From: Sipunculus nudus
Taxonomy: Eukaryota > Annelida > Sipuncula > Golfingiida > Sipunculidae
Length of the DNA: 64,000 bases
Direction: 5' to 3'
Assembly: GCA_026874595.1 (NCBI GenBank)
Contig: CM049317.1
Location: forward strand, 55,524,118 to 55,588,117
The notes beneath the pieces were generated by a model. That model saw only the letters and a list, made by a program, of their open reading frames with translations. It was not told the DNA's origin and made no database searches. How positions within the stretch are numbered: position 1 is the stretch's first letter; each line of letters opens with the position of its first letter. Positions 325 through 31,935 of this stretch are shown piece by piece. The translations under genes were made by a program, and so were the position numbers.

Positions 325-830
325 CCTCTGACATTAGAGAGTCTACGACCAGAGCTCTGGCTGTCAGAATGCCGTTACAATCTTCAGCGTTGAACGTACT
401 TTAAGGCTCTTTGAGATATATATTTTCGTCATTTCTGACAATGCTACATTGCGTAAAATTACGCGTTCACTTAACATAAACCAGACCAATCGTGATTTTT
501 TAGTATACTTTCTAACAACACCTAACATGAGCGAAAAAAATTCCGTTTTTACTCAGCATTTTGGTAACATCCTTCACATGTTTGTTGAACATCATGAATA
601 TAAGCATGGCTGGCACGGGTTACTGGACGTAGCTAACTTGTATGCGGTACAGAAAATGTCTCGTTACCATTAAAACGGAGTTTCAATTTTAACATGTTTA
701 TTCATCATTCCTAACCTAATGTTAAGATTATGGGCAGTTTACCACGATATGAATGCAATTTGATGGAAGACCACTGAGATGTATTCCTATATATGGCTTT
801 TGTCACTACTCAAGTTAAGCTTACCAACCC
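325..830 (+). repeat. Dispersed repeat family B, copy 1
   Basis: This block has a diverged second copy in the same orientation at about 47385-47820. Shared landmarks in the same order include a CGCCATTT start, a TATATTTTCGTCAT segment, a TTTAGTA-ACTTTCTA segment with AACACC-AACATG, a TTCCGTTTTTA segment, ATAAGCATGGCT, AAGTTAAGATTAT and a final TATGGCTT-TCAC segment. The copies differ by many substitutions and small indels, so they are old. No coding capacity is preserved. The element class is unknown; terminal repeats were not identified. Confidence 0.6.
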
Positions 831-2143
831 AATATTAATGCCTACTGAGTCTTGTTGTCACGGCTAGCGCCACAGCGGACTACGGTGAGAGTTTACCTTC
901 CGGCTCGTTGGACGGAACTGTTCAAACATGTTCCCTGTGTAGCATGAAGTCACTGAAGAACGACAAGCATTTAACTCCGCAAGCATAAAGTATAAAAACA
1001 CATTAACAGACGCGTATTAAGCTGATATATTGACGCATTTTGCTACTAAGTAAGTTCTTTTTCTAAATACCATTATCAGCATGGATTTCTATCACACAAC
1101 AAGTCCTAGTTATATATATATATATATAATTAAATATTATTATTCGAACTATTTTTCAAATGAGAATAATTATCAAGACATTATCTGATAATTAAATAAT
1201 ACAATGTAACATCCAATATATGAATCTTTATTCTCTTTTATTCTTCTTCTTTACTTTAGCTGCCCATTCACCTACCTTTTGAAAAGGAATTTATGTGAAT
1301 TATGGCCTTCTCTGTGTATATATTAATGATGCAAGGGTAATTTTGCCTGTGCAAAGTTCTTATTAACGCCTTCAAGAAGGATGTATGAATTGGTTTTTCA
1401 ACAAAATGTATGTAAACATGTGGTCAGTTGTTGCAAAACGCCATTTTCAAATAGTTTATCTGACTTGCTGCCAGTTGCCCTTGTTGAATTCGTTTTGATT
1501 ATTTTAGTGGGGCTCAAAATATTTTAACACGTTGATATGAACAAAACAAACAACCTGTGATATCCACGTTTTATGGTATTTTTTTTTATAAAAGCTCCAA
1601 GAGATTATCTTTAGTTTATAAAAAGTCAGCTTGGTAATTTGGCCCCTTAAAGGGGATCAGACACGGCATCCTTGAAGCCCTTGGCAGTGGAAGCCTTCCA
1701 CAATAGCTCGATTAAATATTTACCTCTCCAATACTACTGGGAAGGCGTTTTGAGGGCGGATGCCTCGTGTCTGTATAATTAACAACTGTGTTGTAAAGGA
1801 AAAACAGTTACTGCGAGCAGTTTTTAACGTTACCCACTCCCGACATTTGACAGTAACGTTCATTGATTAATCCGTAATTGTTTGCTGATGCAGACAAAGA
1901 ATGTGTATGACTGATTATAGATGAACATTCACTGATAATCCTAGAATCTAAGATGTGGTTCGAAATATCACCATCCTTGGGAAGATGACTATGAACAAAT
2001 TATCGTGACACTGCCAACCGAATTTTATCTCTAAATAAACGCTACCGACACACCGCTCGTTTGAATATTGTATTGTAGAAGTCTTATTGAATCGACAAAT
2101 CAACCGAGCGTGATCGAAGTAATCGTAAGACCGTAAAATGAAT
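831..2143. other. No recognisable gene; short TA microsatellite
   Basis: AT-rich DNA with a (TA)n run at about 1111-1128 and a more GC-rich patch at about 1645-1790 (GGCATCCTTGAAGCCC onward) that could be an eroded repeat. No supported exon or RNA gene seen. Confidence 0.4.
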
Positions 2144-2414
2144 TTATAAAAATTTCCTGTTTTTATATTTGCGTAAAGTAATTAAGGATCCGTTTGTGTC
2201 CATCAGCCTGTTATTATCCCTTCGCAACTTCGTTGTGAAAATGATATATTTACGCCTCCTTTCGTGCGTCCGTCGTGCCGTCCGTCGGGCCGTCTTTCCG
2301 TCCGGAATTGGCTTGTGGATCGAATGAAAGCCAACCTGTTTGGCCAAAACCTTTCATCTAGCAAATATGGCTCACCCATCTATGGATGAAAAAAATTATT
2401 CATCTTGAGGTCAC

Positions 2415-2428
2415 AGGGTCAAAGGTCA
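2415..2428 (+). promoter_or_regulatory. DR1-type half-site pair (AGGGTCAAAGGTCA)
   Basis: Two AGGTCA-like half-sites separated by one base, the consensus bound by RXR/HNF4-class nuclear receptors. An identical 14-mer lies at 2559-2572 and a degenerate one at 2704-2717, one per internal repeat unit. The sequence match is direct; any regulatory function is speculative. Confidence 0.3.
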
Positions 2429-2558
2429 CGGTCACAAGGCGCACTATTTTAAAAAGCTTGTGGTCCGATTTGAACCAAATGGTTCGGTCCAAAACCCATT
2501 ATCTTGCACCTTTTATCACCCACCCATGGATGGAGAACCCTATTGACTTTGATGTCAC

Positions 2559-2572
2559 AGGGTCAAAGGTCA
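2559..2572 (+). promoter_or_regulatory. Second DR1-type half-site pair
   Basis: Identical AGGGTCAAAGGTCA in the second unit of the same dispersed repeat, 144 bp from the first. It is probably repeat-encoded rather than evolved for a local promoter, because no nearby gene is visible. Confidence 0.3.
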
Positions 2573-2867
2573 CGGCCAGTACATCGCCCACTTCTTGAAA
2601 ATGCGTGTGGACCCATTTTAGGATAAACGTTTGACCAACACCTGTCAGTGCCATCTTGCTCATATGAATCACCCATGAAGAACCCTACTTAGTTTGAGGT
2701 CACAGGAGCAAAGGTCAAGGCCAGAGAGCTGCCCTCCTCATTTTCACACTGTGTAATACACCCGTTCTAATTATGCCCCGTACAAAGGATTGCTCCGCTT
2801 TTCGGAGCCCTTGTTGAAGTTTATATTTTGAGTAGAATTTACCCACGTTGGCAGGGGTCATACAGGA

Positions 2868-3181
2868 GGGGGGAGGGGGGCATACATCACCCTCTTTTTA
2901 GCAAGGGGTGAGTGGGTCATTGTAATAATCTCCCTGTTATTCAGGAAATAATATTCATATATTGAAAATAAAATGTATTAAAAATAAGAATAAGAGACTT
3001 TTGTTCAATTTCTGAGTTAACTATGAAATATTAAAAATCTAAACCTGGTTTAGAATTAACCTAAACTGGTAACATAATACCTTGTGTATTTAAAACCTAA
3101 TGCTTAATTTTGGTATTTTTTGATAAGCTGTCACAAACAATAAATATATTTATATATACATCTATATAAACATATTTACAA

Positions 3182-3247
<66 letters not shown>

Positions 3248-3260
3248 ATAGATAGACAGA
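2868..3260 (+). repeat. Dispersed repeat family A, copy 1 (poly-G start, TA/GATA microsatellite end)
   Basis: G-rich start (2868-2880), then a diagnostic CTAAACCTGGTTTAGAATTAAC segment split across 3038-3060, then a long microsatellite. The same order recurs near 6740-6830 and 42256-42620. The central AAACCTGGTTT is palindromic. No coding capacity; possibly a MITE or other non-autonomous element that seeds microsatellites. Confidence 0.5.
3186..3260. repeat. (TA)n then (GATA)n microsatellite
   Basis: About 26 bp of TA followed by a run of GATA units with minor interruptions, at the downstream end of repeat family A. Confidence 0.95.
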
Positions 3261-4304
3261 TATATTCACCCACCCCTTCCCCCGCCCGTTAAGATAATTT
3301 GACGCCACAACTCAAAGATCCGTGATTTAGACATAAGGGCTCTTAACGCACAAAACATGCATTATTGGCTATCTATAAAACAATTCATGGATCTTGAGCC
3401 CGTGATACAAGACTCATACGTCAGTACAGTGCTTAGATTCTGTAGCTGTTTTTAAAAAATGTACTGTATCCAGACCTTTGTGTACTAGCTCCATCGACAA
3501 ATTATCTGCAGGGCGGCCTTGGCCTATGGTCGCTGAACATCCCACGCAGTAGATGATACATACCATCAAACGGAAACGTGGGTTGGTTGAAACGTTGGAA
3601 GTTACTCGTCTTCAGAGCGTATAATCCATAATTTACGGCTACAATTTCATGACTTGTCGTTATGATTTTATATCCCTCCCTAGTTACAGTGAAAATTACC
3701 CTAACAAACATTTGACATTCAGGTCAAGCAAACGTATTCCAAATCTCATTATATTATCATAATTATTAACATAATTGCCTTGTTAAAAAAAATATTTATA
3801 TAGATTTAAAATAAAATGAGCCCGATTCTTGAAAGAAAAATTTTTTTTCTTCTTTATATTTTTCCCACTAAAACATGAGTTTTGTGTGATTTGTTCAAAA
3901 AATATTGGCACATTTATGAGCCCGGCAGTGACGTCACACACTGAGAAATCCCCTGTGACTAAAAATTCTAGATCTCAATAAAAGCACAGTATTTCTGCCA
4001 CTGTCAGTCCCAAATTCTTAGCAGAGAATAAAAATAACATGCATTACTGGATCTGAATTGTTTATAAATTTCAGTTCATGATGTCACAGGTTTACCAGCC
4101 AATCAAATCAGGGTAAAGTCTGGGATCTCTATGAAATCCTCCCATCACACAACAAACGCACGTGGAATAGGTTTACTTAACCTTCAAGACACTGTCTTCA
4201 GGTCCATTTTCGGGATAAACCAACAGCTGAAAGAGAGGGCTTAGTGTCGCCCTTCCGCCAGAGGTCGTGTCTTCTCAGCACAAACCTCTTCCATACTTCA
4301 GAAT
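3261..4304. other. No recognisable gene
   Basis: AT-rich sequence without supported exons. A CTTCCGCCAGAGGTCGTG segment at about 4252-4269 recurs at about 20004-20021, suggesting an eroded dispersed repeat ending here. The predicted short ORFs have no domain I recognise. Confidence 0.4.
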
Positions 4305-4331
4305 GGGGGGGGGGGGGGGGGGGGGGGGGGG
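4305..4331. repeat. Poly-G tract (27 nt)
   Basis: Uninterrupted G run; one of about 16 G or C homopolymers of 10 nt or more in the window. Confidence 0.95.
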
Positions 4332-6719
4332 TGGCCCCCACTAATTGTCTCAACTGTCCAACTTTAAAATCAAAATTTCTTACGTTTCAAGGAAACACCT
4401 TCAGTTTACCTGTCATATGCACATGCTTACAAAATGTTACTTTTTTAAGAGAAGTTCTTGTTGCAAAAACACCCATGTCTATGTTATTTGTTAATTTTTT
4501 TTCTATCGTATCTGAAGGGGCTGGATTAGGCCTATCCTCTTTACTAATTTATACCTACGCCGCTGGTGAATTTGGAATCCCCAGTGCATTATGGGCATAT
4601 AATTTCTATACTTACAATCCATAACCATTAGAGTCAAACACTTGTGAGTTTTACGCATTATCGGGTGAGAGCCAACGTACACATGGGTACATCGTGAACA
4701 GAACAGGCAGATCAGTACGTATACGTACACGAAAAACTTCGAAATTACCAACGGGACCTCGAAAAAGAGTTTGCATTTTCGAGGTGGTCGTCTAAGCAAG
4801 GTCTTATATACAGCGCAAAAACGAGTCGGGCCCTTGAACAAGTGGTCGTTATTTTTAGGTGGTTGCTAAAACGAGGTGGTCGTAAGACGAGCTTTCATTG
4901 TTTATACAGATAAATTTTATCTTTGAATATTTATTTTCTTCAATATCAAATAGAAAGGCTTTATAAAAGTACTATACCTTAACATTTCGCGTACATTTTA
5001 GATATGCAAGTAAAATAATTTCTAATGTATTACATATAGTCATGGAAATAACTATGGTCTCTATATATATTATAATACATGATCACCTTATAAGGAGATT
5101 GGGTTGCATATAAATCAGACCAACCCTTTGCCTTATTTAGTGTGTTTGGTTGGAGTAATATATAGTATAAGCGCTGAGCCAAATAAGCTTATAATCGGAA
5201 TTGTTTGGCTTTATAAAATTATCTTTTAGCAGTTATAAATCTAAAAACAACTTTATAACAAACATTGTCATTATGTTGCTGCTCATAAATTAAGCATTAT
5301 ATTGCATTCTTGGTTTTAATAGACTCAATATTGCAGAAATAGGCAATTACTTCTTTTTCAACTACAAAAACAAATTTAGTTTTAACACTCATGTCAAATA
5401 TACCCTTTAAATTAGGCATTTTGCAATCACGGTTCAACCCATAAGTATTTAGCTTAATTAAGTAATTCAGTAAATCACATAACAGACAGTATACCAATCA
5501 GGTCCGTGCTGCTTTTAAAACAGAGGACACAGTAAAGTAATAGGGGTCTCCCTATAACCGGAACACAAAATTTATAACCTGTTGAACCTTATTTGCCATC
5601 GGTTAATCATTAGATAACTACACTTAACCCTGTGTTATACTATGTAATGAAAGCTGTTACATATTAGAAATGAACAAGGTCCCCCCCCCCGCAATAAAAT
5701 AATAGGAATTATATTACTTAAGTATTTTGTTCATATTAATATCTGTTTACATTAAAGTCCCGATTAAAAAATATATTAATAAAAATAAAATCTGTCATTC
5801 AATAATATAAAAAAAGAATAAGGTTTTTTATATTAAATTTTCGTCATCAGTTTGATGTTACTCATATAAATATCACAGCGAGATTATTATATTAAGGACC
5901 GGAAGATTTATTTAGGAAAGAGGTAATATAAATCGATAGTGTCTCCCCATCCCAAAAAAATAGAGTAAATATTAACCAATATTCTGTAACTAATTTCTAG
6001 CTCTATAGGAAAGAACTCTTTAAGAAGCTACCTGTGGGTATTTGTAGTTTCTGCCCTGACTTTGTCAGTTCTGTTCACATGGAGAATTACAAAAAATACG
6101 GTGCATCCCCATTTTGTCGCTTCCAACGTTCAAGACCAGCTTATACTTATAATGTATTGGTATATATTATGAATTAATCTGTCCTTATTCCTGCACTGTT
6201 ACATAACGTATTGAAGAATTCAATCAATATAACTAGGTTTATTATTTAACCTGCTAGATTTTAAAGATTTCATTTTTGGAAATGTCATAAAGGAGTTCTC
6301 ATCCTATACAAGATTTATACCGATATTTTCTTCTTTCATAGATTACTATATGAGTATACTTTATCACCATGGGCCTTGCTTGCTGATAAAGCGTGAGGGG
6401 GGCCAGCTATGACAACACGACACTCTGCCGTTTTAAAAAACATTGAAAGGGGCCTGGGAATGTACTCAGTTGATTAATAATGGATGTTAGGGTGGCAGGC
6501 TGCCGCTAGAGGGAGAGAGTCCAAAGGGGTACTGGTAGAAGACTCCCGACCTCCGAGAAATATGAACAAAGGCATAGAGTCTGTCCCCGACATCTCACCC
6601 TCCAAATAACAAACAAAGCAAAATCCCTCCCAAAAATATGGTTTTTTTTTTCCAGTCACGTCACATATAATTAATACTGCAAAAATCATAACCTGTTATA
6701 TTTTAATAAATAGAATTAT
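4332..6719. other. No recognisable gene
   Basis: AT-rich DNA with a C10 run at 5681-5690. I found no exon, tRNA or element end that I could support in this 2.4-kb stretch. Confidence 0.4.
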
Positions 6720-6830
6720 TGGCTTTGGTTCCAGTTATGAGTTTACTATGTAATATTAAATCTAAACCTGGTTTAGAATAAACTTATACTGGTAAAATGA
6801 CTATATATATGTGTGTATGTGTGTGTATAT
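6720..6830 (+). repeat. Dispersed repeat family A, copy 2
   Basis: Carries TATGAGTTTACTATG-AATATTAAATCTAAACCTGGTTTAGAAT as at 3018-3060 (split here for length), then a short TA/TG microsatellite at about 6800-6832. A G14 run follows at 6979-6992. Confidence 0.5.
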
Positions 6831-8322
6831 ATCATCAATTAAAATCACCAAAAAAGCATCCTAATGCTTAGCACGGAACTTTAATCCGAACAGTGTGTGT
6901 GGGACATGAAAGGGGGAGGGTGGGTGGGGGATAAAGTAATCTGATATTAAGTTACTTGCCATCCATTTCAGGTTACCCGGGGGGGGGGGGGGTAAATGAA
7001 AATGGGAAACTTCCGGGTCTTTACGCCGGTCTAAGTGTGAACCTTTGTTACATTAGCCTCGGGCTTTCCTTGAACCAGTGACCTTTAGTTTCGCACGTGA
7101 ACTTCAGTTTCGTAGTTCAATGCCTGCGTATGTTGTTGGCTCACCTGTGCACTGAAAATGTCAAGAACGTCTTGTGGAAAAAGCAGATCATGGACAGACG
7201 GAGCCCTTTCACAAACGATCTCCCGAATACCCTGAGACTGGAGTCGGATAAGATGAAGATACGATGGAACCAGTTCACAGCATGGGCCAGTAGTTCGGCT
7301 TAGATGCAATGAACAGAAATGCTAAGGTTGCTATGAAACTGAAAGCTAACTACTTATTAGACTGGCCTAGTCGATGCAATGGTTAAGATTTACTTCCTCT
7401 CACTAACAGAGCAATCAAACCTGCTCTTGCTGTGTCGCAACGATTAGTACACGTACTGCCACTCCGTGATTAATTATATAACTGCATCTCTCTGGTCGTC
7501 CATTCTGTAGTGATTGGGGATGGCACTGAGTCACGTCTTTCGGCACACGGAATCACGTTTTATTTTACGCAATTAAGTAGCAAACGTTAATACTAAAGCC
7601 GAGGCAGGGCTTACTAACTGTTTAATTAAAAAAAAAACAAACAGATACACATTTTGATCAATTATATATTATTTGCTATTGATTATCCAGACAAGAGTGT
7701 TTCACTAGGGGATGGATCAAGAGACTTTCTATATGACGACACAGACAATATAAACCTGAAAATAAGGGCAAGGGATCCGTGGATCTATCCAACACTGTTG
7801 ACATTATTGGGTCTACAAAGATGTATGAGTGCTAACAAATGCATTGTTGAAAACTTTGCTTAATATCTTTACAAGGAAGAAAGAATTCGTCATTCTTTAC
7901 TAGCACCGCCACTTACAGATATCTTTACACTAAGGACAACCTAGACCAACCGTTAGAATGTCTGCTGCATGTTGTTATTTTGTATTTTTTCTTCAGTCAT
8001 AGTATAATGTTTAGACTACTGAATATATATAGTGACACATTTTGACAGCATTGACAGCATAACATAGTATTTTTGACATGAACAGGATATTTATTTCAAA
8101 CACCAGTTTATTTAAAACTTTAAAAAAATACATCGTTTAGATTGAAGTATTCAATAGCTGGAATACTTGACTAAGTAATCATAATTGTCGCGGGGGTATA
8201 TCTCACAAGGAAAACTCACTTTCTTTCTATAGTTGAACCCACATGATTTAGCAGCTATTTGGTAGGGTTTCCCCTGAATGTCGCCGGAGCAAAGTAGAAA
8301 GAATAGATATACTGGTGCTCTG
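6831..8322. other. No recognisable gene
   Basis: Overlapping short ORFs on both strands at 7085-7309 have no recognisable domain and no splice context that I would defend. The remainder is AT-rich and unremarkable. Confidence 0.35.
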
Positions 8323-8470
8323 TGAGATACGAAAATACTTGATCTTATAAGGGGAGTGCATAGATACGGAAATACTTGGTTTTATACGGGAAGAAGCAAG
8401 ATACGGAAGTACTTGACATTATACGGGAAGTGCGAAGATAGGGAGATACTTGGTATTAAAAGGAAAAGCA
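8323..8470 (+). repeat. ~41-bp tandem repeat, about 3.5-4 units
   Basis: Successive units read AGATACGGAAATACTTG followed by a TTATACGGGAAG-like half and a spacer of a few bases. The units are about 40-42 bp and diverged from one another. They are not open in one frame, so a local minisatellite rather than protein repeats. Confidence 0.7.
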
Positions 8471-8624
8471 GCGAATGAGGAGTGCATAAAATGAGTGATT
8501 CATAATTCATATAACATAACACAACATATATCATTAATATATACATGCAGGTCAGTCCCGGTCACTTAGCTAATTAATGTTTTAAGATACCACGGTAATC
8601 CAGATCGTTGCGTTTCTTGGTACA

Positions 8625-8870
8625 TTAACAAGGGCGATGTTTGCGATCACATGCCATACATAATGAACTCCTGGCCTTTGCAAGGCCGTGGTTTACACCT
8701 CGGTGAAGTTTTGCCGAGATGATATGAAGCAGGAGATCTAAACGTTGCTTGCGACTGGAAATCCCCTTTAAGGGTTCACGGAAAGCTGGAGGTTTTTTGA
8801 GCACTGGAGGAGATACTCGGTCTAAACCTCAATCGCGGCGAAACTTCAGAAAGTTGACTATGGCATGACG
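8625..8870 (+). repeat. Dispersed repeat family C, copy 1
   Basis: Starts with ACAAGGGCGATGTTTGCGA and ends near TCGCGGCGAAACTTC-AAAGTT. A related block occurs at about 38868-39130 (ACAAGAGCATCGCAAACGTG to TCGCGGCGAAACTAAAAGTT). Only the ends align by eye; the middle is diverged. Class unknown. Confidence 0.4.
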
Positions 8871-9711
8871 ATGCCCGCTCCCCTAACAGTCCTATCATAA
8901 AGACGTTCATGGAAGTTTCAGTCATTAATAAGATACCCGAAAATAAGGCACAATAGTCGGGGGAAATAATTATATAGTAAAATTGTTTGCCTATGCATAA
9001 AGTTATAACCTTGCCGCATATTTCCAGACATTTGACCTCATGACCCAGACGCTACGTGTCTTTCTGTTAGACACGCATGCGGCACAAAACTCTCAGGAAA
9101 TAAATTGTCAGGTGCGCATATACGTAATTTGAAATGCCGTTGTGCAATAAAAATATTCATAAACATATCTGTTTCCTTTTTGTTGATGATTTATTTAATA
9201 TCATTTGAGACATAACGCTTCTTCTATGACTCAAAAGGACATCGATGTTGAAGCCCGCACATCCCGGTTATTATCATTATTTATACATGCACCACCGACA
9301 TGACAATAAGCGGGCTTGACTGTTCTTGATTCTTTGGTGTTTTCTTCAGTTTTACTATCACCTTAACTCCTCCTAAACTTACTATACTTGCCATTACATA
9401 TTAAAGAGTAGCAGCTGGAGCTTGAGACCAGCAGTTTTGGACCTCCAGACATAAAGATTTAAATGGCACGCGTATGTTATCAGACTCTCTATCGCTGGAA
9501 AGCAAAATTGCCGTCGCAAGATCCCTGGCGTATGGGCTCCCACGCTGGTGCGCTTTTAACTGCTTTCTGTTTGTCGTGTGTAAAAGACTTCAGGGTACCA
9601 GCGACTCTGATATCGGGTGAGATAATTGGCGCTCCCGCTGGGCGGGAGCTTGGCTCCAGTTCTGCGGGAACTCTAAAAGCCTAGCGTAAATCACGTTTCG
9701 CTTTCTTACAG

Positions 9712-9811
9712 AAAATGTCATCAGATGCCCCTAACAGGCCTTTGCTGTGGGCCACCTGTATATTCTTGGTGATTTTCTCATTTATGAAAGGTATTTGGGC
9801 TAAAACAACGG
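9712..9811 (+). CDS. Candidate exon: signal-peptide-bearing N-terminus of an unidentified protein
   Basis: A pyrimidine-rich tract ending TTTCTTACAG precedes AAAATG, and the reading frame runs from the ATG at 9715 for 32 codons into a consensus donor (GG|GTATGT) at 9812. The peptide starts MSSDAPNRPLLWATC and continues through a hydrophobic core (IFLVIFSF) to about residue 29 (IWA), typical of a cleavable signal peptide or a single membrane anchor. The exon ends in phase 1. An upstream GGTGAG donor at about 9616 would make a 95-bp intron behind a 5' UTR exon. No continuation exon could be found by eye downstream, so the protein family is unknown. The splice and signal-peptide reading is inference from sequence pattern; a chance match remains possible. 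Confidence 0.4.
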
Positions 9812-12101
9812 GTATGTACCTGTTAATGCTTCACTAGCTGCTATGCAGCTTCAGCGCACTTCGCAGCACACGCAGACCAACTTATGTTGTAAATTAATAG
9901 AAAGGCAAGATGAAAAGATGTGCACCCCATTATATCATCAAAGTGGTGTTAGTAATGTACGAGACGAGAACACAGCTTGACTTCGTAATAACATAAAAGA
10001 TGACATTCTTTTCATGTTTTCTCAGCTATGATAGTGTGTTTTATATAAAGCAGCATTTGCGAAGCCCTTGCTGCGACAAAATGTATTTAATGCCTGTGCC
10101 ACCCTATATAGGGTTTTCATTTAAAGCTGTCCTCCCACTTACCGATATATTATGTCAACCGATTTTTTTCAAGCGGCTGAGAAAAGTCGACAAGCTTCAC
10201 CGAGCGCAGGTAGTGCCCGCAGAACAAACGGTTTTCTGAAATGATCGACAGATTTTTATTTTTCTGTTCATTTTGGACACTTCACTTCTGATTGCGTCTC
10301 CAGGATTGTTATATTGCCGTCAAGAATGATGAACAGAAAAGTAGTTTGTAATTCAGCCGATTCAGTGGATAACAATCGGCCGGAAAATCTTTGACATTGT
10401 CAAGGATTTAGCAGCCGATTTTTCCTGCCGGTTTAAAAAAAAACTACCGGCAGCACCCTAACATATACTGATCATACCGATGTTTCCTCCCGGAAACCCT
10501 CGACCGGAAAAAATGGTAAATGGAGGGCCAGCTTTCAGTATGCCTTATTCAAGTAAAGATTATTGTTTGGTTTATAGTCTGATATAGCCAACGGTGTGTG
10601 TGTCAAAGAAACCATGGCAAAGACACAATACATCCTGTTGAAGGCAAAATGGAAGTGCTTTCTTTACTTCGGGAAATAACCAAATGGTAAGGAAATGCAG
10701 CTTTAATTGAACGATGGAAGGGTCTGATGTCGCCCCTGGGGAACGTCTGGGCTATCCATTGCTGGTATGAAGAAGCCATGCACTATCCCAGCTTGTCGGA
10801 TTGTTCTAGTTAAGTGTTAATATGGTCATCATTGTTATGTCAGTTTTTGAAAAATCTCGCAAATCAGCTGGGGACAGATTTCACTTACGGATCATACCAT
10901 CATCTGATTCCGGTCACTAATTCTGTCCTGGTGGGATAAAAGCAATTAAATGCACCAGTGTATCGTAAATTCATGTCCGTTAAACAGAGGCAAGGTTGTT
11001 CTGACTTATATAGGAGCGGTATTAGCCATGTACTTCACAATTATGATATCTGGCACCTTCATGGTTATTAATTGCTTCCGCTAGGTGGGTGTGCTTTCAA
11101 TTGCTTTCGTGTGCTTGTGTATGTGTGTGTATGTGATTAGGTGCATTTGTATGACTGTGCGTGTGTGTTTCAATGTGGGCGTGTGATTGTGTGATTGTTC
11201 ACAACATAACTCATTCAATCATGAGAGGAATCTTATGAAATTTTCCAAGTATTTCGGCAATGGGCTAATAAAGGATGGATTAGATTTTGATGTGTTTCGG
11301 GTACATAATCAAGGTTTATTCTAAAACCTATGTAGTCACTAATGCGCCAATGTACCACGGAGTGCAGATTTCTAGCTTTACATTTGTTTTATATGTGATG
11401 TTTAGCAGTGTATATGCTCCCCCCTCGGGTGGGGGGGGGGGTGAGATGGCAGACTGTATTTAAAGCAGGATCGGTCTCTCTAGGTAGAACCGCGGGCATA
11501 AGTACCAGTGGGTATTAAACCAGTGTTGGCTGGCCTAGGGTGACCCCTTGGACACCTGAATATGCAAAATCTGAAGGAAGGCGCCAGACAGGCCCATCCA
11601 ACAAGGGGTCTGGCGCCATCCCACACGGGTGCCCGCAAATAAACATTGTAGGTAAGCATAAATTAGAGACATTTGAAAAAAAACATTAGGCAGTTACCTC
11701 CATAATTAATATTTAATAAGGATAAACCTTAACCAGAATGGGAAAATAAACACAGTCATGGTTCTAATCTTTGCTGTCAACAAACTGCCATGATGAAGAC
11801 ATAGGACAATGTAAGAACGATTGGAACAAACTCTTAAGAATCAACGAATTAAAGAATGTATTACTTGCAAGTTGTTATATGGAACCTGTACTTGCATAAC
11901 AACCGAGAGTTCCGAAAGTACGGATGAAATAAAAACAACAATTATCTTTCATCATGCAGAATGGAGGACTTCTCAATTGATGAAATTATTCATTTTCGTA
12001 TATATAACATAAAATGGCTTTGGGCTGCTTGTTGGAACGACGATAAAACTACATTGTAAGAGTTATGAAGACAAATTGCTCGGAGGGTGGGGGGGGGGGG
12101 G
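9812..12101. other. Possible intron or intergenic DNA; no supported exon
   Basis: If the exon at 9712-9811 is real, this begins its following intron. It includes a TG-rich stretch at about 11110-11170 and a G run at 11431-11441. Nothing I could confidently call coding. Confidence 0.35.

Positions 12102-23059: not shown

Positions 23060-23123
<64 letters not shown>
23060..23123. repeat. (TA)n microsatellite at PLE 3' end
   Basis: About 64 bp of perfect TA. It lies just beyond the hammerhead at the 3' side of the minus-strand PLE, and may be the junction of the retroelement with flanking DNA. Confidence 0.95.
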
Positions 23124-23124
<1 letters not shown>

Positions 23125-23148
23125 CTCTGAAGAAAAACAACACTGTTA

Positions 23149-23196
23149 ATTCACAACAGACTGTTTCACGGGATGCGACCCGATCATCAGGTGAAT
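23149..23196 (-). ncRNA. Hammerhead ribozyme (type I, PLE-associated)
   Basis: Read on the minus strand, the order is stem I strand ATTCAC, core CTGATGA, stem II CGGG / CCCG closing a TCGCAT loop, core GAAA, a very short stem III (ACA/TGT around GTC), cleavage triplet GTT, and the second stem I strand GTGAAT. All conserved catalytic-core bases (CUGAnGA and GAA) are present. A T-T mismatch closes the base of stem II where a G-C pair is usual, which could weaken activity. PLEs of many animals are known to carry such minimal hammerheads in their terminal repeats. This one lies about 600 bp downstream of the PLE endonuclease stop codon on the same strand. Confidence 0.8.
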
Positions 23197-23797
23197 GTGG
23201 TTAGAATGAAGCTAACGTCGTGGTTTGAAAAGCCGAGACTTTACGAGATTACGAGATTATGCTTTGTGCGATTCGGGTGGGGGGGGGGGGCATGTGAAAG
23301 ACTGACACTGATCCTATTGTTCTCGGGTGCACAATAGGATTGGTCGGGGTACACGTGCGATACTGGAACATAACAGGGCAGGGCAAAGAGGTTATATAAT
23401 GTAGTAAATAGTAAATATAATACAAAGATATAACCAGGATGCTCAAACAGCATATTGAAATGATTTCTAATAGGGCCTTGGAAGCAGTGAACATATCAGT
23501 AGTATACATATGACATGATAAAAATACACATATACTGTGAAAATACACAATATACAAGGCAAATATACAATATAAAAGGCAAATATACTATACCCATACC
23601 AAGTGGTGCAAGTCTCCTAGCTGAAGGTCGTAAAGCCCATTAGACCAGGATAAAGTAGAACTTTCCTGTCATCCAATGGACTCCACGAGCCAGCAGTGAG
23701 AGAACAACTACCTGAACAAATGAGTCTGCCCAGCGGATCCTCGTTGGGGGGGGGGGGGGGTTGGGTTAAGGGGGCACGCTGAATATTAGTACGAATG

Positions 23798-24146
23798 CTA
23801 GGTTTTAAAATATTTCAGGGTGAATTTGTTTTGATGGCGGCACTTGGAGAGAATTTCAGCTCTTGAGTTCAACAATGATCCAGGGGGGGCCGTAGCTATA
23901 AGTAGCTTTTCAGACAAGCAGAGATCACACTTCCTAGTCCCACAGAAGTAAGGTGCTGCCTTGGCAGATATTTCCCAGGAGAGCTTGTAATTGATATTGT
24001 TGTCTTTTAGTGACCAAATGTGTTTAGACAGTTCAGTGTTTTTAGCGTGGGATCTGTTCCGAAAGGATTGCTTGTGGTTATTATATCTTGTCTTGAAATC
24101 ACCTTCAGTACACCCTATGTAGTGTTTCACGTCATTGTCTGTTTTA
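23798..24146 (-). pseudogene. PLE GIY-YIG endonuclease domain, C-terminal part
   Basis: Minus-strand reading frame of about 115 residues ending in a stop at 23798-23800. It starts with the sequence around KHYIGCTEGDFKTRYNNHK: the YIG strand and the conserved Arg of the GIY-YIG nuclease core. It continues with ELSKHIW-LKD, a CGTRKCDLCLSEK segment and a final SKCRHQNKF-LKYF, all in the order seen in Penelope/Neptune-type endonucleases. The first signature strand (VYKA) lies in the other half, 7.2 kb away. No frameshift is visible within this half. The RT is missing, so it is a non-functional fragment; the function belongs to target-primed retrotransposition. Confidence 0.85.
24141..24146. other. 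Target site duplication, left copy (GTTTTA)
   Basis: Identical to 31394-31399, immediately outside the inverted termini. With one copy counted, the two PLE halves are in the same reading frame, which supports this as the true insertion site. Confidence 0.9.
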
Positions 24147-25108
24147 TACGGAAGCGTATTGCTGCCACCTGGTAAAAGAAAAATAAATTATTTATCTCGT
24201 ACGTACGACATAGTATCTCGTACGTACGACATAGTATCTCGTACGTACGACATAGTATCCCGTACGTACGACATAGTATCTCGTACGTACGACATAGTAT
24301 CTCGTACGTACGACATAGTATCTCGTACGTACGACATAATATCTCGTACGTACGACATAGTATCTCGTACGTACGACATAGTATCTCGTACGTACGACAT
24401 ATTATCTCGTACGTACGACATACTATCTCGTACGTACGACATATTATCTCGTACGTACGACATAATTAATCTTCCGCATCTGAATCATAGAATACACAAC
24501 AGGCCAACTGATATATGTATAAGCATTATATATATGTTAAATAATGCGTGTTCGTACCCTAACTACACAACATCTTCACCTTGCAAACCGTCGGAACACC
24601 GTTGAAAAGAAAAAAAAATACATATGTTTATTAATGCATTTATCTTTTTATTTATTTTTACTATAAATTAAAATGCTATTGATTTATTGTTGTTTCTTTG
24701 TGTTAACGTTTCGGAAATATTGCAAGGAAAAGAAATTTATCAAATCGTTGTCTGCCAGTCATATACAGAACTTTCATTTTTAAATAGGTAATTAATTCTG
24801 TTAGCAGTGTAATATTAATAAGAACAAATTATTGCCTTTGTCAAATTGAAACTACCTTTTGGAGAAGGAAGGGTTCGGACAAGAGGTACAGCTAACAAAT
24901 AGCCTGATTGTAAGTAATTGAGAATTGATATATGTAGGGTAGGTTTCTTATATTCCTTAATTGATCTGTATAAGAACTAGATTTATGACATAACGCACAG
25001 TGTCACTCGTTCTACCGTAAACACTAAGTTCAACTGATGGGATCAAGCACTTCGTTTCATAATATATGAATCAGGAACCTCTCCTTACGGGCATCTCTGT
25101 ATTACAGA
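24147..25108 (+). repeat. Left terminal inverted repeat
   Basis: Collinear with the reverse complement of 30195-31393. Matching landmarks include GGTTCGGACAAGAGGTACAG (24872) with its reverse complement at about 30715-30738, and GGGATCAAGCACTTCGTTTC (25039) with its reverse complement near 30245-30264. Identity is perfect at the tip and lower inward. Confidence 0.85.
24193..24465 (+). repeat. Left subterminal array, 13 x 21 bp
   Basis: Units each contain TCGTACGTACGACATA with the 12-bp palindrome TCGTACGTACGA, and differ mainly at one or two bases at the unit junction. Because 21 is a multiple of three, the array is open on both strands (SRTYDIV-type heptads on plus, MSYVRDT-type on minus); this is a by-product and not evidence of protein coding. 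Confidence 0.95.
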
Positions 25109-25124
25109 CACCTCTATTAGTCAG

Positions 25125-25430
25125 GTGGCTTAGCGTCAGATTTTGGCCATATCGTTACAGACCGGATAAAAGCACTAAAATTTGTATATGGATAGAGTAC
25201 ACCAAAACAGATGATTTCAGATGGGGTGCCCTCATGGAGTACCTACGAGATAAGTTTTAGATCCTGAAAACCATCTGCGCCTTGCGTATCACAGTACCCT
25301 CTTTTCGCATGAAAATGAAGAGGGATAGGGAAGGAAAAATAACCTTAGATCCACTGCGGTTTAATGAAATATAGTAAATTATATACCAAAAGAAAGCCAA
25401 AGAAGTGTTCTTTCTATCATTACCATTTAC
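25125..25430 (+). repeat. Internal repeat R, copy 1
   Basis: Begins GTCAGGTGGCTTAGCGTCAG and includes TTTTGGCCATAT, a GATAAAAGCAC-AAA segment and AGGGATAGGGAAGGAAAAAT. It is repeated directly about 980 bp downstream (26105-26410) and inverted at about 28910-29060. It contributes to the overall imperfect palindrome. Confidence 0.7.
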
Positions 25431-26104
25431 ATTGTTATAATATACATTTGTAGCCCAAAAAGTGTAGAATGGTCACGTGACAATACAGTTTCTCAAATTC
25501 GGGACTGGGAAAGCTACATGCAAACATTAAACGAAGATATTAAGTGTATAAACGAAAAAATGTGCAAATATTTTTCTTGTTTACTATTGTTGAGTTTGTG
25601 ATTCAGTTTTTGGGAAAGTATTAAATGTTTATCACAAAGGATAGTTCCCTTAGCAGCTTCTTGTGTTTGAACTTATAATATGACCGATTACCCATATTTC
25701 TGATAAAAATCAACCTTACATTAATATTTTTGTTTTTTCTTGTTATTCATTGCAACGGATCTCTGTAAATCGTACCCAATTCAAAATGTAAACTTCTGGG
25801 CCAGCAAAATGGATTTATATTAGAATTATATTATTAACTATCATAACCGCCTTGTTACAAGATTGCGACCACATTCCGAATAATATGTTGAGAAATTACC
25901 ACTGATACATCACCTGTTTCCAAATTAAATACAAATTAAAATAATATAGAAATTAAATCGTTCAGACTGCATTATCAAATAAGCCGACAATATTATTTAA
26001 GCCAAAAGGTTAAAATGCGATATATTAGTCGTACTGGCACATTCTGGAACACAACTTGGGTAGTTACATTTGGAAAAGGGTGTACAATCAAGATTTTCTT
26101 TTAG

Positions 26105-26410
26105 TCATGTGGCTTGGCGTCAAATTTGGACCATATAGTTTAAAATCGGATATAAGCACCAAACTGTGAAAGTGGATAGACTACATCCAGGGGGTTGATT
26201 TTAGAGGAGGTCCCCAGGTGAAGTACATAATAGTTTCGTTTTTAGCGCCAAAACCTATTTGGCCCTTGCTCACCGAAATAACAATATTTAGCCTGAAAAT
26301 ATGAAAGGTCAGGGAAAGGAAAATCACTTTAGATCCGCTTTATTTGGATAGAATATTGCAAATGATACACTAAATTAAAGACAAAGAAAAATATGTTCCA
26401 GTCCAATATA
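26105..26410 (+). repeat. Internal repeat R, copy 2
   Basis: CATGTGGCTTGGCGTCAAAT start, with GGACCATAT, TATAAGCACCAAA and TCAGGGAAAGGAAAATCACT segments matching copy 1 in order. Confidence 0.7.
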
Positions 26411-28909
26411 TTTATTATTTTTTTTATGTGCACAAGAAGCCAACATAACAGCAAAAGTCAGGTGTTTATGACAGATCTCAAAAAGGCGGTCATCAGCCAT
26501 GATGAAAATGTGACACAAATGTTTTAGTGAAGAGGTACAATTATTAACATAGTTTTTGTTTAATAATTCCTTATATATTTTGCCTGAGTTGGAGAGTATT
26601 GTCCATTAGGAATTATTGATAATTTTCTTTGCGGTCATTGTAGCTGACTTCAATTTGTGATCAAGACTTCGCATATAGTCATGTTAAACGCTTAAATGCC
26701 ATCGCAAAATATCAACGTTTTCATTCTACACTTATCCTGTCCTGTTCTTTATTAGCCGGAAATTATGCGTTCTAACTTTCAATTATTTAATTGCAGATGA
26801 ACAAATATATCCCGTCTTTTAGTCTTCTTGGTATATTGTAGTACTTTTACAATAAATCTTGCATTTTTGTTATGTAGCAAACTGTCTTGTTTATATATAG
26901 TTTTCTACAATGGCTAAATTTATATGGTGTTACTTAGTTGTTCATTATTTCATCTAGAGACCATGTCCTGTAGAATATTAACCTAAATTTCTTATTCCTT
27001 TCTTATTCCTGCATCCCATAACTATTTAACTTCATACCTGTTTTCTTTTTTATTTTGGGAATATAAAAATAAATACCATAGATACATGATTCATTTTTTA
27101 TACTATATGCAAGCATGCGGTTTAACAAATTTCATAGGCCTTTCTATTTTCCGTATGATGCAACAAATACCTTTATAAAATGATTTAATCGCAAACAAGA
27201 TGTCTAGTTTGAACTTGACAACAAGTTTGAAAGTATATGTCTGAATAACAAAAACAACCAATTTTATTCCAAATCATGTGTTATCTGTATCTCCAAACTC
27301 CCTCTTAAATTCACTCTAAAGGTTCTTAGGTTTAGGAATCCATCAATAACAAACACGTTTTAACAACAAAATGTATAGGTAAACTTAAGACAAAGCCCCC
27401 TTTTCCTGATAGATATAATGTGTTTGCTTTTAGACAGAACTTTAGACTTGCACTAAAATGGCGGTCTCAGCATTATAATACAACTTAAGCATATTCATAT
27501 TTTATACTTTATTTATATTCAATATTTTATAATCATAAACAATTAAAGTTAACTCAGTCGGACATTTCCATGTCTAAACGATTTAGAATGTAAAACTTGG
27601 TCTAAACAACGTTAATCATTAATATTCTGACTTTTTTTTATAGAGACGCTTTATTCTAAACGAATTAAACACCCAGCTAATCTTCATAAGTCCTCATTGA
27701 CTTGTACTCTAAAGGTATCGTCAGTCTCACATTGCATAGATCTGAACAAAGCCACAAACCAAATTTTTCTTTTTCAGTTAAATATTATTTAGGATAAGTG
27801 TAAAGAATTGCTGCTTAATGATTCAATTCTGAGAATTGTCTCATTTGCCTGTATAACATTTATCGTAATTGAGATGCGTTAATGCGCAGTGCAAAAATAT
27901 TAGTCCAATTCATGTAGACTGCCAATGTAAACACCAATCATGCACTGAGCTGCCCAGATCGCACCCATACTAGTATGATCTTTATCACCCAAACAATTAT
28001 GCATTATTTATTTATAATTTATTTATATTCATATATATATATATATATATCTTAAAAGCTGAGCTCCAATATTTTAACTACACTCTCAACCCATAATTAT
28101 TACAACAGCAGGCTGCGTCGTATTGAACCTTGATCTAAATTGCTACTATCAATAATTATTCTGCAATTTATTAATTTCTTTGAAATGTTATTATTCCAAA
28201 TAGATATAAAACTCAATGGGTGTTCAAGAACCACCTATTAGCGTATTATGTAAGTCCATATATAAGACTGGCTAAGTCAATGGATTTGCTTGTAGCCCTT
28301 TTCTCTCCAGACAGATATTATTTTGGATAAGTGTAACTTATATTGCTTTATGGCACATTTTCATTAAAGCATTTACCATATTTTATAATCAATATGTATT
28401 TGTGTCTTGATTATTAATGATCAAAGGTGTGGACAAATTAAATAAATTGTTTCAATCACCTGGGTTTTTCGTTTCTTACTTAGATACAGATTTCAAAATG
28501 GTTGGTTTCACTGGAAAAAAGTGTATATATATTAGTATATTTCCTATATATTTCAATTATATGGGTGTGAATCTTTATAATTTTAATATTTATGCAATAT
28601 TAATTTGTACTGAATTGCTTATATCTTAACTTTTTCAATATTTTCTTCAGAACATGAGGGCATTTTAACACACTCACAGAATACAATTTCACATCAATGG
28701 ATGACGTGACCTTTCGACCTCTTGCGACTTACAATTATACTTAAATATGATTTTCGTCACAATTTCAACGACAACTGTTCATGATATTTCTTAATGGTGT
28801 TCTTATTATGCTTATTGATTAATTTAAAATGAGTTTTAGAGTCAACTAAGTATACAACATTCCGTTAATTGTTGTAAACTTGTGAAATTTTACGTAAAAT
28901 CCTGTTATT
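26411..28909. other. AT-rich core of the transposon, no gene
   Basis: About 2.5 kb, very AT-rich, without a transposase or any recognisable domain. The 70-codon ORF at 28417-28629 is low-complexity and hydrophobic. A GGATAAGTGTAA word recurs near 27793 and 28324, hinting at a diverged internal duplication. Confidence 0.5.
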
Positions 28910-29060
28910 TTGGACTCGGGCCTGCTGAAAGAACCAGAAACTGAGTTCCGGTGGGCATCCCCTCCAGAATGATCAGGATCGATCTGTAGATACTTCATAT
29001 CAAATTTGGTGCTTTTATCCGGCGTGTAACGATAATTCCGTTAAGCCACCTGACTATATA
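28910..29060 (-). repeat. Internal repeat R, inverted copy 3
   Basis: The reverse complement reads AGTCAGGTGGCTTAACGG, ATCGTTACACGCCGGATAAA and AGCACCAAATTTG, matching 25125 onward. It is the right-hand counterpart of the left copy, displaced about 1.1 kb by the nested segment at 29230-30190. Confidence 0.65.
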
Positions 29061-29229
29061 TTGACACTCAAGGTTCATATTCTTTTGTACTAATATGTTT
29101 TGTCTCACGTTATTAACTCATTTTGGCTGAATACGAAAAATGTTTAGCAAATCCATGCCGATAAACGGGATTAATATCTCCTGTTTACCGCATTTGTATC
29201 CGTTATAACGGTTCTGTGTGTGAGTAAAC

Positions 29230-29659
29230 ACAGTGCACCTTTGTCTGTTTATAATAACAAGACCGCGTGACCAGAAGCAAGATCTTAGTCTACCATACGC
29301 GACAATTATAAAAAATAGAGAAGAAACATGAAAGAAAATCACCCAGAAAAGCTTGAAAAACCTTGATTTTTGTGGAGTTTATTTTTACGGCCAACAGGTG
29401 GCGTGAGCGCTGTTTTTCATTGATCGCGCCCAGGGCAAGTTTTTTTTTCCACCTGTAAACAGGAGAAAGTAAACGAAGAACGAAATATTGAGAGATCCCG
29501 TAATAGTTTAAGGAGACTAAATTGTACTTTATTTATACTCAAAGTACCTGGTTTGTAAAATGTGAATAGGTCCTTTTTTTCATTTAAACTTTCTACTATT
29601 CAATCGGCTCTCTCTCTCTCTCGCTCTTTCCCTCTCTCTCTCTCTCTCTCTTTCTCTCT

Positions 29660-29712
<53 letters not shown>

Positions 29713-30190
29713 AATATATATATATACGTTAATATGTGTGTGTGTGTGTGTGTATGAAAAGACTGAAAGCCTTGGGATATAATACCAGCGCTGTGTTAGA
29801 ATGGCTAAGCCGGTGGATAGTATTAATGTCATTAGTAATACATGTAATGTCTATCAGATCTTCTTGTTTGACCAGATAAAATATCCCGACATGTGCAAGG
29901 GGCATAATTAGTTATTGTTACTTGCGGGGGATTCCTTTGCTTATATGGCAAATTTGAAATGGAAATAAAATTTAGAAACGAGACCAATCGTTTAGAAACG
30001 AGACAAACACAGCGCTCACGCCACCTGGTGGTGGTACAGCATAAATTCACAATTCAAGGGTTTTCAAGCTTTTCTAGGTGTTTCTTCTTTTATGTTTCTT
30101 TTCTTTTTTATAATTGTCGCAAGTGCGCGACCAAGATCTTTCCTCTGGTCACCCGGCCCTCTTATGTAAACACCTAACAGACACTTATAG
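29230..30190. mobile_element. Nested inverted-repeat insertion inside the right arm
   Basis: Segments 29230-29425 and 30000-30190 are inverted copies. Both contain a GTGACCAGA-GCAAGATCTT-like start, CGACAATTATAAAAAA, AGAAAAGCTTGAAAA and GGTGGCGTGAGCGCTGT, in opposite orientation. Between them lie CT, TA and TG microsatellites. The left arm has no counterpart, so this segment was probably inserted later. No clear target duplication was found. Confidence 0.55.
29608..29755. repeat. (CT)n(TA)n ... (TG)n microsatellite
   Basis: About 90 bp of interrupted CT, then TA with one interruption, then about 20 bp of TG, in the centre of the nested inverted-repeat segment. Confidence 0.95.
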
Positions 30191-30194
30191 AGGT

Positions 30195-31393
30195 TCTATA
30201 ATACAGAGATGCCCATTAGGAGAGGTTCATGATTCATATTTAATGAAACGAAGTGCTTGATCCCATAAGTTGAACTTCATGCCGTTTACAAAAGGGCGAG
30301 TTACACGTACATGTACCACATACAAGATTTTATACCAATTCGCAAATGAGACAAATCTGAGGTGTAGATTTTACCACCACTTCAGCTTGACATATGAGGT
30401 TAAGACCTATTTTTGAATTTCGTATTCTTCGGTCACAGATTAATCACACGCCCATGAGTGATAGTTTTTAATATAAATTTTTTTTTATAATTTAGTTCAA
30501 AATAAAAATTATACGTACCCCCATTAAATGGATCGTTTTCTATTCAGCTACCCAACAATCATATCAATCGCTGTATATGCATTCAATAGTTTAAAAGGTC
30601 AAACTACACGATGTGTTATGTATAAATCTAGTTCTTAGAAAGATCAGTTTAGAATATTAGAAACCTGCCCCAAAGATAATCATTCTCAGTTACTTAAAAT
30701 CAGGCTATTCGGGAGCTGTACCTCTTGTCCGAACCCTTCTTTCTAAAATAAGTAGTTTCAGTTTGGCAAAGGCAAGATTTTTTCTTATTAACATTATGAC
30801 AGGCTAACTATTATAACATCATATACTGCTAAAATTATTTATTCACCTGTCGTAAAATGAGTTCTTTATATGATTGTCAGACAACGATTTGATGTATGTT
30901 TCGCTTGCTTGAAATATAACAGAAACCTGGACACACACAAAAAATGTGAATCGAATAGCATTTAAATATATACAATAAATAAATAGATATATGTGATTGT
31001 GTGTGTTGTTTTCAATGGTGGTCCAGCGGTTTGCAAGGAAGTGGAGATGTTGTATATATAGTTAATGTGAAAACATACATTATCTAACATATACATATTG
31101 CTTATACATATATCTGTTGGCATGTTATCTAGTCTATGAATCAAATCCGTGAGATTTATTATGTCGTACGTACGAGATAATATGTCGTACGTACGAGATA
31201 GTATGTCGTACGTACGAGATAATATGTCGTACGTACGAGATAGTATGTCGTACGTACGAGATAATATGTCGTACGTACGAGATACTATGTCGTACGTACG
31301 AGATACTATGTCGTACGTACGAGATACTATGTCGTACGTACGAGATAAATAATTTATTTTTCTTTTACCAGGTGGCAGCAATACGCTTCCGTA
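30195..31393 (-). repeat. Right terminal inverted repeat
   Basis: Reverse-complement partner of 24147-25108. It is longer by about 240 bp net: the array is four units shorter, but a segment of about 320 bp near 30285-30612 has no match in the left arm. Confidence 0.85.
31160..31348 (-). repeat. Right subterminal array, 9 x 21 bp
   Basis: Same unit as at 24193-24465 but inverted. Reading inward from the terminus, the junction variants follow the same block order as on the left: GTA-type units outermost, then alternating TTA/CTA types innermost. Confidence 0.95.
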
Positions 31394-31399
31394 GTTTTA
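31394..31399. other. Target site duplication, right copy (GTTTTA)
   Basis: Identical to 24141-24146. Confidence 0.9.
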
Positions 31400-31911
31400 A
31401 CTGTTGCTTTATAGACAATGCATTTCAGCTGACATTGACCATTCATAGGACATTCGTCTTTTTTACGGCAGTTACATTGTTTTTGGGGTGCATTCACAGC
31501 ATTGTCAGAATTTAGAACCTTCATATTATGTTTGCTGATCAGGTTAGACATGTTGGGTAGACAGCTGTAGCTAATTTTCAAATTGTTCCTGTTGAATAAC
31601 CTGTGGTACCTGTGATGTTGAGGGAAGTGTTTTTCAACTAGTTCCATGAATTTTCTGCCAATGTTGGTTTTTACATGACGGCTGTAGGGTGGATTAAACC
31701 ATATTATTTTCCTTTTCCTGTTTCTCTTGCTTTTCACTGTAGGTTCAACATATTTTAAGCTTTCTGAGAACCCGCTTTTCGCTAAAGCTTCATCATACAT
31801 GGGTTTGGCTTTCATAAATAGCTCTTTATTGCAGGAGTTGTCAGAAACACGTTTACTGATCATCATAGGTATCTGCCTAATGATAGCTGGGGGGTGATTG
31901 GATTGTGCGTG
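31394..31911 (-). pseudogene. PLE linker and Cys motif with start of GIY-YIG domain
   Basis: Minus-strand frame of about 165 residues of PLE type. In order: NHPPAIIRQIP with MISKRVSDNS (the region after the reverse transcriptase), KYVEP, KRKIIWFNPPYS and VKTNIGRKFMELV-KHFP, a LFNRNNLKISYSCLPN segment, the CNCRKKDECPMNGQC cysteine motif that precedes the endonuclease, then CIVYKATV (the GIY-equivalent strand). It stops at the transposon insertion. The frame is open throughout. The 5' side ends at an (AT)n tract at 31912-31935, and no reverse transcriptase follows. Confidence 0.85.
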
Positions 31912-31935
31912 GATATATATATATATATATATATT
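31912..31935. repeat. (AT)n microsatellite at the PLE 5' truncation
   Basis: 24 bp of AT exactly where recognisable PLE protein sequence begins; a second AT tract lies at the opposite PLE end (23060-23123). Confidence 0.9.

Follow-up and report, generated by a model that had tools for sequence, protein, structure and literature searches.

A foldback transposon family in Sipunculus nudus with IS3EU/GingerRoot-like ends and 6-bp target-site duplications

Introduction

IS3EU/GingerRoot is a little-studied superfamily of transposable elements. As set out in parts of PMC10045372 and PMC12730594, IS3EU elements have TA..TA ends and usually a 6-bp target-site duplication, GingerRoot elements are mostly TA..TA with 6 bp, and rust-fungus IS3EU members show TAYGG..CCRTA ends with terminal inverted repeats of over 30 bp; TET-carrying members in fungi hold passenger genes (alpha-kinase, TET/JBP). 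No foldback form of IS3EU is described in those parts. Mutator is the superfamily with which foldback elements have chiefly been linked (Galileo, of the P superfamily, is an exception), and the foldback element Tetris, with 8-10 bp duplications, has been suggested to belong to Mutator (PMC4079207, in excerpt). In this study we analysed a stretch of 64,000 nucleotides from Sipunculus nudus (assembly GCA_026874595.1, contig CM049317.1, positions 55,524,118 to 55,588,117 of the forward strand; hereafter the window), in which a foldback-type element interrupts a retroelement. We consider it probable that this element and its many relatives in the host genome are non-autonomous foldback-type DNA transposons of the IS3EU/GingerRoot kind, mobilised in trans.

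Results

Structure of the window element

The element is 7,247 bp long (24147-31393) and has the hexamer GTTTTA on each side, at the boundaries already given in a preliminary description made from the letters of the window. Its two ends (outermost bases TACGGAAGCG) are perfectly inverted complements of each other over 113 bp; the preliminary description had the outermost bases right and understated the extent at 10 bp. Tandem Repeats Finder placed subterminal arrays of 21-bp units in both arms (13.0 copies on the left, 9.0 on the right), and long inverted matches between the arms reach about 25.1 kb on the left and about 30.2 kb on the right, which bears out the foldback-like anatomy proposed earlier. 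Four open reading frames (ORFs) of at least 90 aa, with ATG, GTG or TTG as start codons, overlap the element: three read through the arrays, and the other is part of the retroelement that was interrupted. No transposase ORF was found among them, in agreement with the preliminary description, and the element has no gene of its own.

The interrupted retroelement and its empty site

The element sits in what we take, from its motifs, to be a Penelope-like element (PLE) with a GIY-YIG endonuclease; neither Pfam nor PDB named these labels (the 682-aa frame of a PLE sibling had no such family in Pfam and matched no chain in PDB). With one hexamer counted, both flanks are read in a single frame over the junction (...VYKATVK-TDNDVKHYIG...), and the insertion lies between the presumed VYKA and YIG strands, both as first described. 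An empty-site query of 400 bp was matched end to end at all 40 genome places scored, the best of 700 candidates, with identity given as 100 (rounded). The single sibling read (L060) carries GTTCTA where both window hexamers are GTTTTA, and the bit score was the same for all 40 matches, which fits one common mismatch, as read in L060. Since both window hexamers share a base that is absent from L060, both must go back to a single hexamer, as expected of a duplication.

Over 1,539 bases the window PLE and L060 differ at 9 substituted positions and by a single gap of 6 bases. The insertion postdates the PLE copy that it interrupts and, with so few substitutions separating that copy from its sibling, looks young; it may be recent in years. 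The homology to L060 ends at 31917, short of the reverse transcriptase, so the PLE copy is 5'-truncated. The claim that the element split a PLE thus stands as to the insertion, with the empty site preserved in siblings, but no complete PLE was broken. Near-identical PLE copies lie head to tail at a spacing of about 2.92 kb in several places (e.g., C11:14440531-14455530 and C3:29338539-29344785).

A genome-wide family with 6-bp duplications

The host genome (1.43 Gb, 153 contigs) was searched with the tip. Allowing up to 3 mismatches, the 26-base tip was found at 743 places (369 plus, 374 minus), and the reversed control at none; the exact 24-base tip occurs at 357 places (56 + 101 + 96 + 104). 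Among 352 listed exact tips, 89 adjacent converging pairs lie less than 12 kb apart, with a median of 3,626 bp and a range of 425-9,893. A sub-family ending in CCACCTAG accounts for 113 tips with A, C or T at a variable base, which is A in 94 of the 100 listed.

We considered 41 loci (40 fetched and the window), of which one (L044) has no partner tip, leaving 40 copies with both ends read. They were chosen from the best or exact tips and the sample leans to intact copies. The 6-bp duplication is exact in 36 of these 40 copies and agrees at 5 of 6 bases in the other four (L009, L011, L025, L026). The script alone returned 34 exact elements, equal to 35 of 41 pairs (L012 and L020 had two pairings each, both exact in L020); L013 and L023 also prove exact when their outer or indel-bearing tips are inspected by eye. 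In none of the 35 exact script pairs does the match extend beyond 6 bases. One copy (L018) is inserted within the tip of another and has its own duplication, TATTGC. The window element and the 40 copies read all have TACGG..CCGTA termini, the left end of L048 (GACGG) excepted. As the copies were selected by tip, their agreement in the tip is expected in part, whereas the length of the duplication is independent of that selection. The preliminary description had staked its reading on other copies having the same ends and a duplication, and they do.

The 7.2-kb type (the window element, L022, L023, L028, L029 and L039) has 94.4-99.5% pairwise identity, and a second long type (L018, L025, L043) 96.5-96.8% among its members. 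About 2.6-3.2 kb are common to the two long types at 88-93%, mostly in the arms. Short copies have kept the arms and lost or changed the core, and some, such as L010 and L041, have right-arm sequence on both sides.

Uniform subterminal arrays with one free base

Array units occur in register in all 78 arms of 39 elements (all but L026 and L044); in 68 of these arms the distance from the tip to the first unit is 46 bp. Across 751 units, positions 1-20 are uniform at 97-99%, whereas position 21 is C, T, G or A at 33/32/23/13%. The 20-mer TATCTCGTACGTACGACATA is a palindrome except for one symmetric pair. The order of position-21 bases is inherited as a barcode; GGGTCTCTA, for example, is found in the right arm of the window element and in the left arm of L023. 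Between arms paired for their similar barcodes (20 pairs, 227 unit pairs), agreement at position 21 is 0.85, versus 0.97-1.0 at the others, so faster change there may contribute. A permutation test on array positions gave p 0.017, driven by position 21, with little difference otherwise between core and spacer; our claim is therefore limited to 20 fixed positions against one free.

DNA makes one helical turn per 10.5 bp. With two turns per unit, the arrays could thus present a series of sites for protein dimers. Hairpin folding of the unit as DNA is no better than that of shuffles (z -0.05), which disfavours an extruded hairpin and leads us to prefer a protein-binding palindrome.

Two 22-kb relatives with a HECT-like frame

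Two tip pairs about 22 kb apart, on contigs C10 and C17, stand out from the shorter copies. By chance 0.068 pairs would be expected at 12-25 kb, and the probability of two or more is about 0.0005 (with the sizes of contigs C11 and C13 estimated). A 266-aa piece (L064) from the C10 pair recurs in the C17 pair at 100% (rounded), in both within a 646-aa open frame; the highest identity among its other 32 matches is 74%, over 66 residues. The piece resembles HECT domains of NEDD4-like ligases in PDB (best E 0.00026), and every one of its 16 PDB matches at E 10 or below is to a HECT ligase; Pfam gave it no match, and gave none in a scan of three frames from the C10 samples. Of the seven samples read from the C10 copy (5.2 kb in all), one is clearly coding, with the HECT-like frame, and six are without a clear gene. 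An array is present at the right end of the C17 pair. These two pairs are our best candidates for a coding relative of the family. The preliminary description had called for a longer relative with a transposase; the pairs share a 646-aa coding frame, and no transposase was found in the samples read or among the matches listed within them.

A core common to the 22-kb and shorter copies was sought and two candidates were dropped. The 280-bp L062 stretch aligns to L018, L025, L043 and L014 at 64-68%; since it also aligns, at 71%, to flanking DNA beyond the element in L047, it could simply be a dispersed repeat. For L066, likewise, the match in L041 falls beyond the limits of the element. The tips of a third long pair, on C12, are 59 kb apart.

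HECT-like frames were also seen at about 30 further places, with 29-48% identity apart from the 74% match mentioned above. Several of these places have frames of equal length (559, 651 and 741 aa). By eye, none of the further places is close to a listed tip; the frames may be element-borne.

Discussion

Affiliation with IS3EU/GingerRoot

The preliminary description found no superfamily to name for this element. That view can be given up, as TACGG..CCGTA with a 6-bp duplication is the signature published for IS3EU/GingerRoot, and by its ends the element fits this named superfamily (parts of PMC10045372 and PMC12730594). The termini are TA..TA and agree with TAYGG..CCRTA, where only the motif match is a test since the copies were chosen by tip; the duplication is 6 bp, with a single mismatch at most; and the perfect inverted repeat of the window copy exceeds 30 bp several-fold. 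On the ends and the duplication, membership in IS3EU/GingerRoot appears probable. What distinguishes the Sipunculus family from the described members is its foldback arms of about 1-2 kb with arrays of 21-bp palindromes, the absence of a transposase in what was seen, and the cargo of the 22-kb relatives, HECT-like here versus alpha-kinase and TET/JBP in fungal IS3EU. No such foldback element was found among the papers listed, as far as titles and abstract openings tell. Tandem repeats have been linked to IS3EU in another animal genome: the oyster satellites CgiSat35 and CgiSat47 are annotated as DNA/IS3EU in part of PMC8268682, but by annotation only and with units of 690 and 129 bp rather than 21 bp.

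Several observations weigh against this assignment. No transposase, such as the rve-type DDE enzyme of coding IS3EU members, was found in the window element, the copies read or the 22-kb samples. The matches scored for the IS481-family model (the best 65 of 5,100 candidates), the rve_3 model (150 of 2,794) and the L050 integrase query (127 of 4,519) include none inside either 22-kb pair. When 39 elements, L044 and L049 were translated in six frames, a profile built from ten integrase-like frames had no match in them. The left tip of the C10 pair belongs to the CCACCTAG sub-family and its right tip is absent from the listed tips of that type, so that the two ends differ somewhat. The integrase negatives are weak evidence, because the matches listed are the best-scoring portion of the candidates and are rich in retroelements.

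A survey of the 60 longest stop-to-stop frames, made on the same 39 elements as the array survey, gave as the largest those of a retroelement in L012 (864, 418 and 290 aa). The remaining long frames are array read-through, simple-repeat translations and a reverse-transcriptase-like piece in L024 (by eye); further, unassigned frames of about 130-165 aa in the copies do not look transposase-like by eye. Transposase candidates elsewhere in the genome were rejected. Matches to the IS481 model are mostly long retroelement-like frames. The L050 integrase (four places at 72% or more) and L058 lie, by eye, away from the listed tips, and L058 has a zinc domain, which IS3EU is described without in the parts of the literature covered.

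Alternative explanations

It is improbable that the family represents a new superfamily, with a transposase unrelated to IS3EU, TA ends and 6 bp by coincidence, and the HECT-like protein perhaps in the machinery. This would suit the lack of an integrase-like gene in the 22-kb pairs (among the matches listed) and in the copies read, as well as the HECT-like frame being the sole clear coding frame in the 22-kb samples. However, the five-base tip TACGG with 6 bp fits a described group, and the genome has many other HECT-like frames that are not close to a listed tip, so the one in the 22-kb pairs could be a passenger.

Origin as a Mutator- or P-type foldback (FB, Tetris and Galileo are examples), mobilised by a transposase of that sort, is likewise unlikely. 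Galileo duplications are 7 bp, and the ends of Tetris and Galileo, like the tips of these groups, differ from the TACGG tip. In anatomy they are the same, with long inverted arms containing internal tandem repeats, a variable middle and mostly gene-less copies; Tetris and Galileo share with the present family modular arms and many rearranged or internally deleted copies, but the 8-10 bp duplications of Tetris, typical of the Mutator/FB type, against 6 bp here already disfavour this explanation (PMC4079207, in excerpt). Dada, which according to partial sources inserts into small RNA genes and whose Dada-U6 and Dada-U1 have no inverted ends, does not fit a window copy that lies in a retroelement and has inverted tips.

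A non-autonomous Polinton/Maverick derivative is also unlikely: part of the literature gives 6-bp duplications for that group too, its long inverted ends and a size near 22 kb would be similar, and integrase frames that we take to be Polinton-like (L056, L057) exist in the host genome, but Polinton ends are AG..CT, not the TA ends of our copies (L048 left end aside), and none of the listed integrase matches falls within the 22-kb pairs. In the 5.2 kb sampled from the C10 pair, no self-synthesis gene of Polinton type (polymerase, ATPase, capsid) was seen.

Possible mechanism and significance

Under the IS3EU/GingerRoot assignment, mobilisation is most likely in trans. A DDE transposase supplied from elsewhere would recognise the TACGG tip and probably also the subterminal palindromes, excise the element and join it to target DNA at 6-bp staggered cuts, whose repair would leave the 6-bp duplication. 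The arrays would most likely offer multiple sites for a dimeric protein, the transposase or a helper, repeated along one face of the DNA at intervals of two helical turns, with unit number varying through gain and loss. Likely suppliers of the enzyme would be long relatives with coding capacity, for instance the two 22-kb copies, or else an unsampled copy. More tentatively, we suggest an IS3EU foldback lineage with a master of about 22 kb that encodes a HECT ubiquitin-ligase-like protein, in which arm arrays of 20-bp near-palindromes at two-turn spacing load many transposase dimers.

If the assignment is true, IS3EU would be the third superfamily with a foldback form, after Mutator and P, and a foldback family with hundreds of tips would show this form arising repeatedly. 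Dimer-loading arrays, if true, would explain how copies without genes and with differing cores, in their hundreds, continue to move. With an insertion that postdates a nearly identical retroelement copy, the family lends itself to studying the role of subterminal arrays in nature, and the one free base per 21 bp acts as a barcode by which the growth and loss of arrays can be followed. A HECT-like gene is a cargo type worth seeking in animal IS3EU elements.

Table 1 Features of the window element, the interrupted retroelement and the 22-kb tip pairs (window positions unless a contig is named)
Feature	Position	Strand	Basis
Target-site duplication, left copy GTTTTA	24141..24146		
Left tip, begins TACGGAAGCG, perfect inverse of right tip for 113 bp	24147..24259	+	
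Left subterminal array, 13 x 21 bp (20-bp near-palindrome TATCTCGTACGTACGACATA and one free base)	24193..24464	+	
Left arm remainder, at least partly common to other copies; inverted matches 24826-24955, 25026-25108	24465..25117	+	
Core, only in 7.2-kb type among 39 elements compared; without long ORF	25118..29053		
Right arm, at least partly common to other copies	29054..31159	-	
Right subterminal array, 9 x 21 bp	31160..31348	-	
Right tip, perfect inverse of left tip	31281..31393	-	
Target-site duplication, right copy GTTTTA	31394..31399		
Interrupted presumed PLE, upstream part (linker, cysteine cluster, VYKA strand; presumed labels)	31400..31917	-	alignment to sibling L060
Interrupted presumed PLE, downstream part (from the YIG strand through the stop, followed by the 3' region)	23120..24140	-	alignment to sibling L060
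22-kb tip pair, 22,114 bp	C10:16851256-16873369		
22-kb tip pair, 22,196 bp	C17:22613458-22635653		

Further observations

The presumed Polinton-like integrase frames (L056, L057) are present in several copies of equal score. IS3/IS481-type integrase-core matches above the Pfam cut-off were found on the small contigs C106, C110, C118, C128 and C135, and L054 is a bacterial-type transposase by eye; these are most likely contamination or symbiont DNA.

Within the foldback family, L012 (556-8963) is an 8.4-kb copy with a nested retroelement, which has an endonuclease domain and is by eye a long interspersed nuclear element. A LIM-homeodomain frame, which indicates an animal host, adjoins one copy of the family. 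A tandem repeat of about 324-340 bp in the window (about 49.7-51.4 kb) recurs at about 482-5577 in L049, an 8.8-kb copy of the family, with 61-89% identity in pieces.

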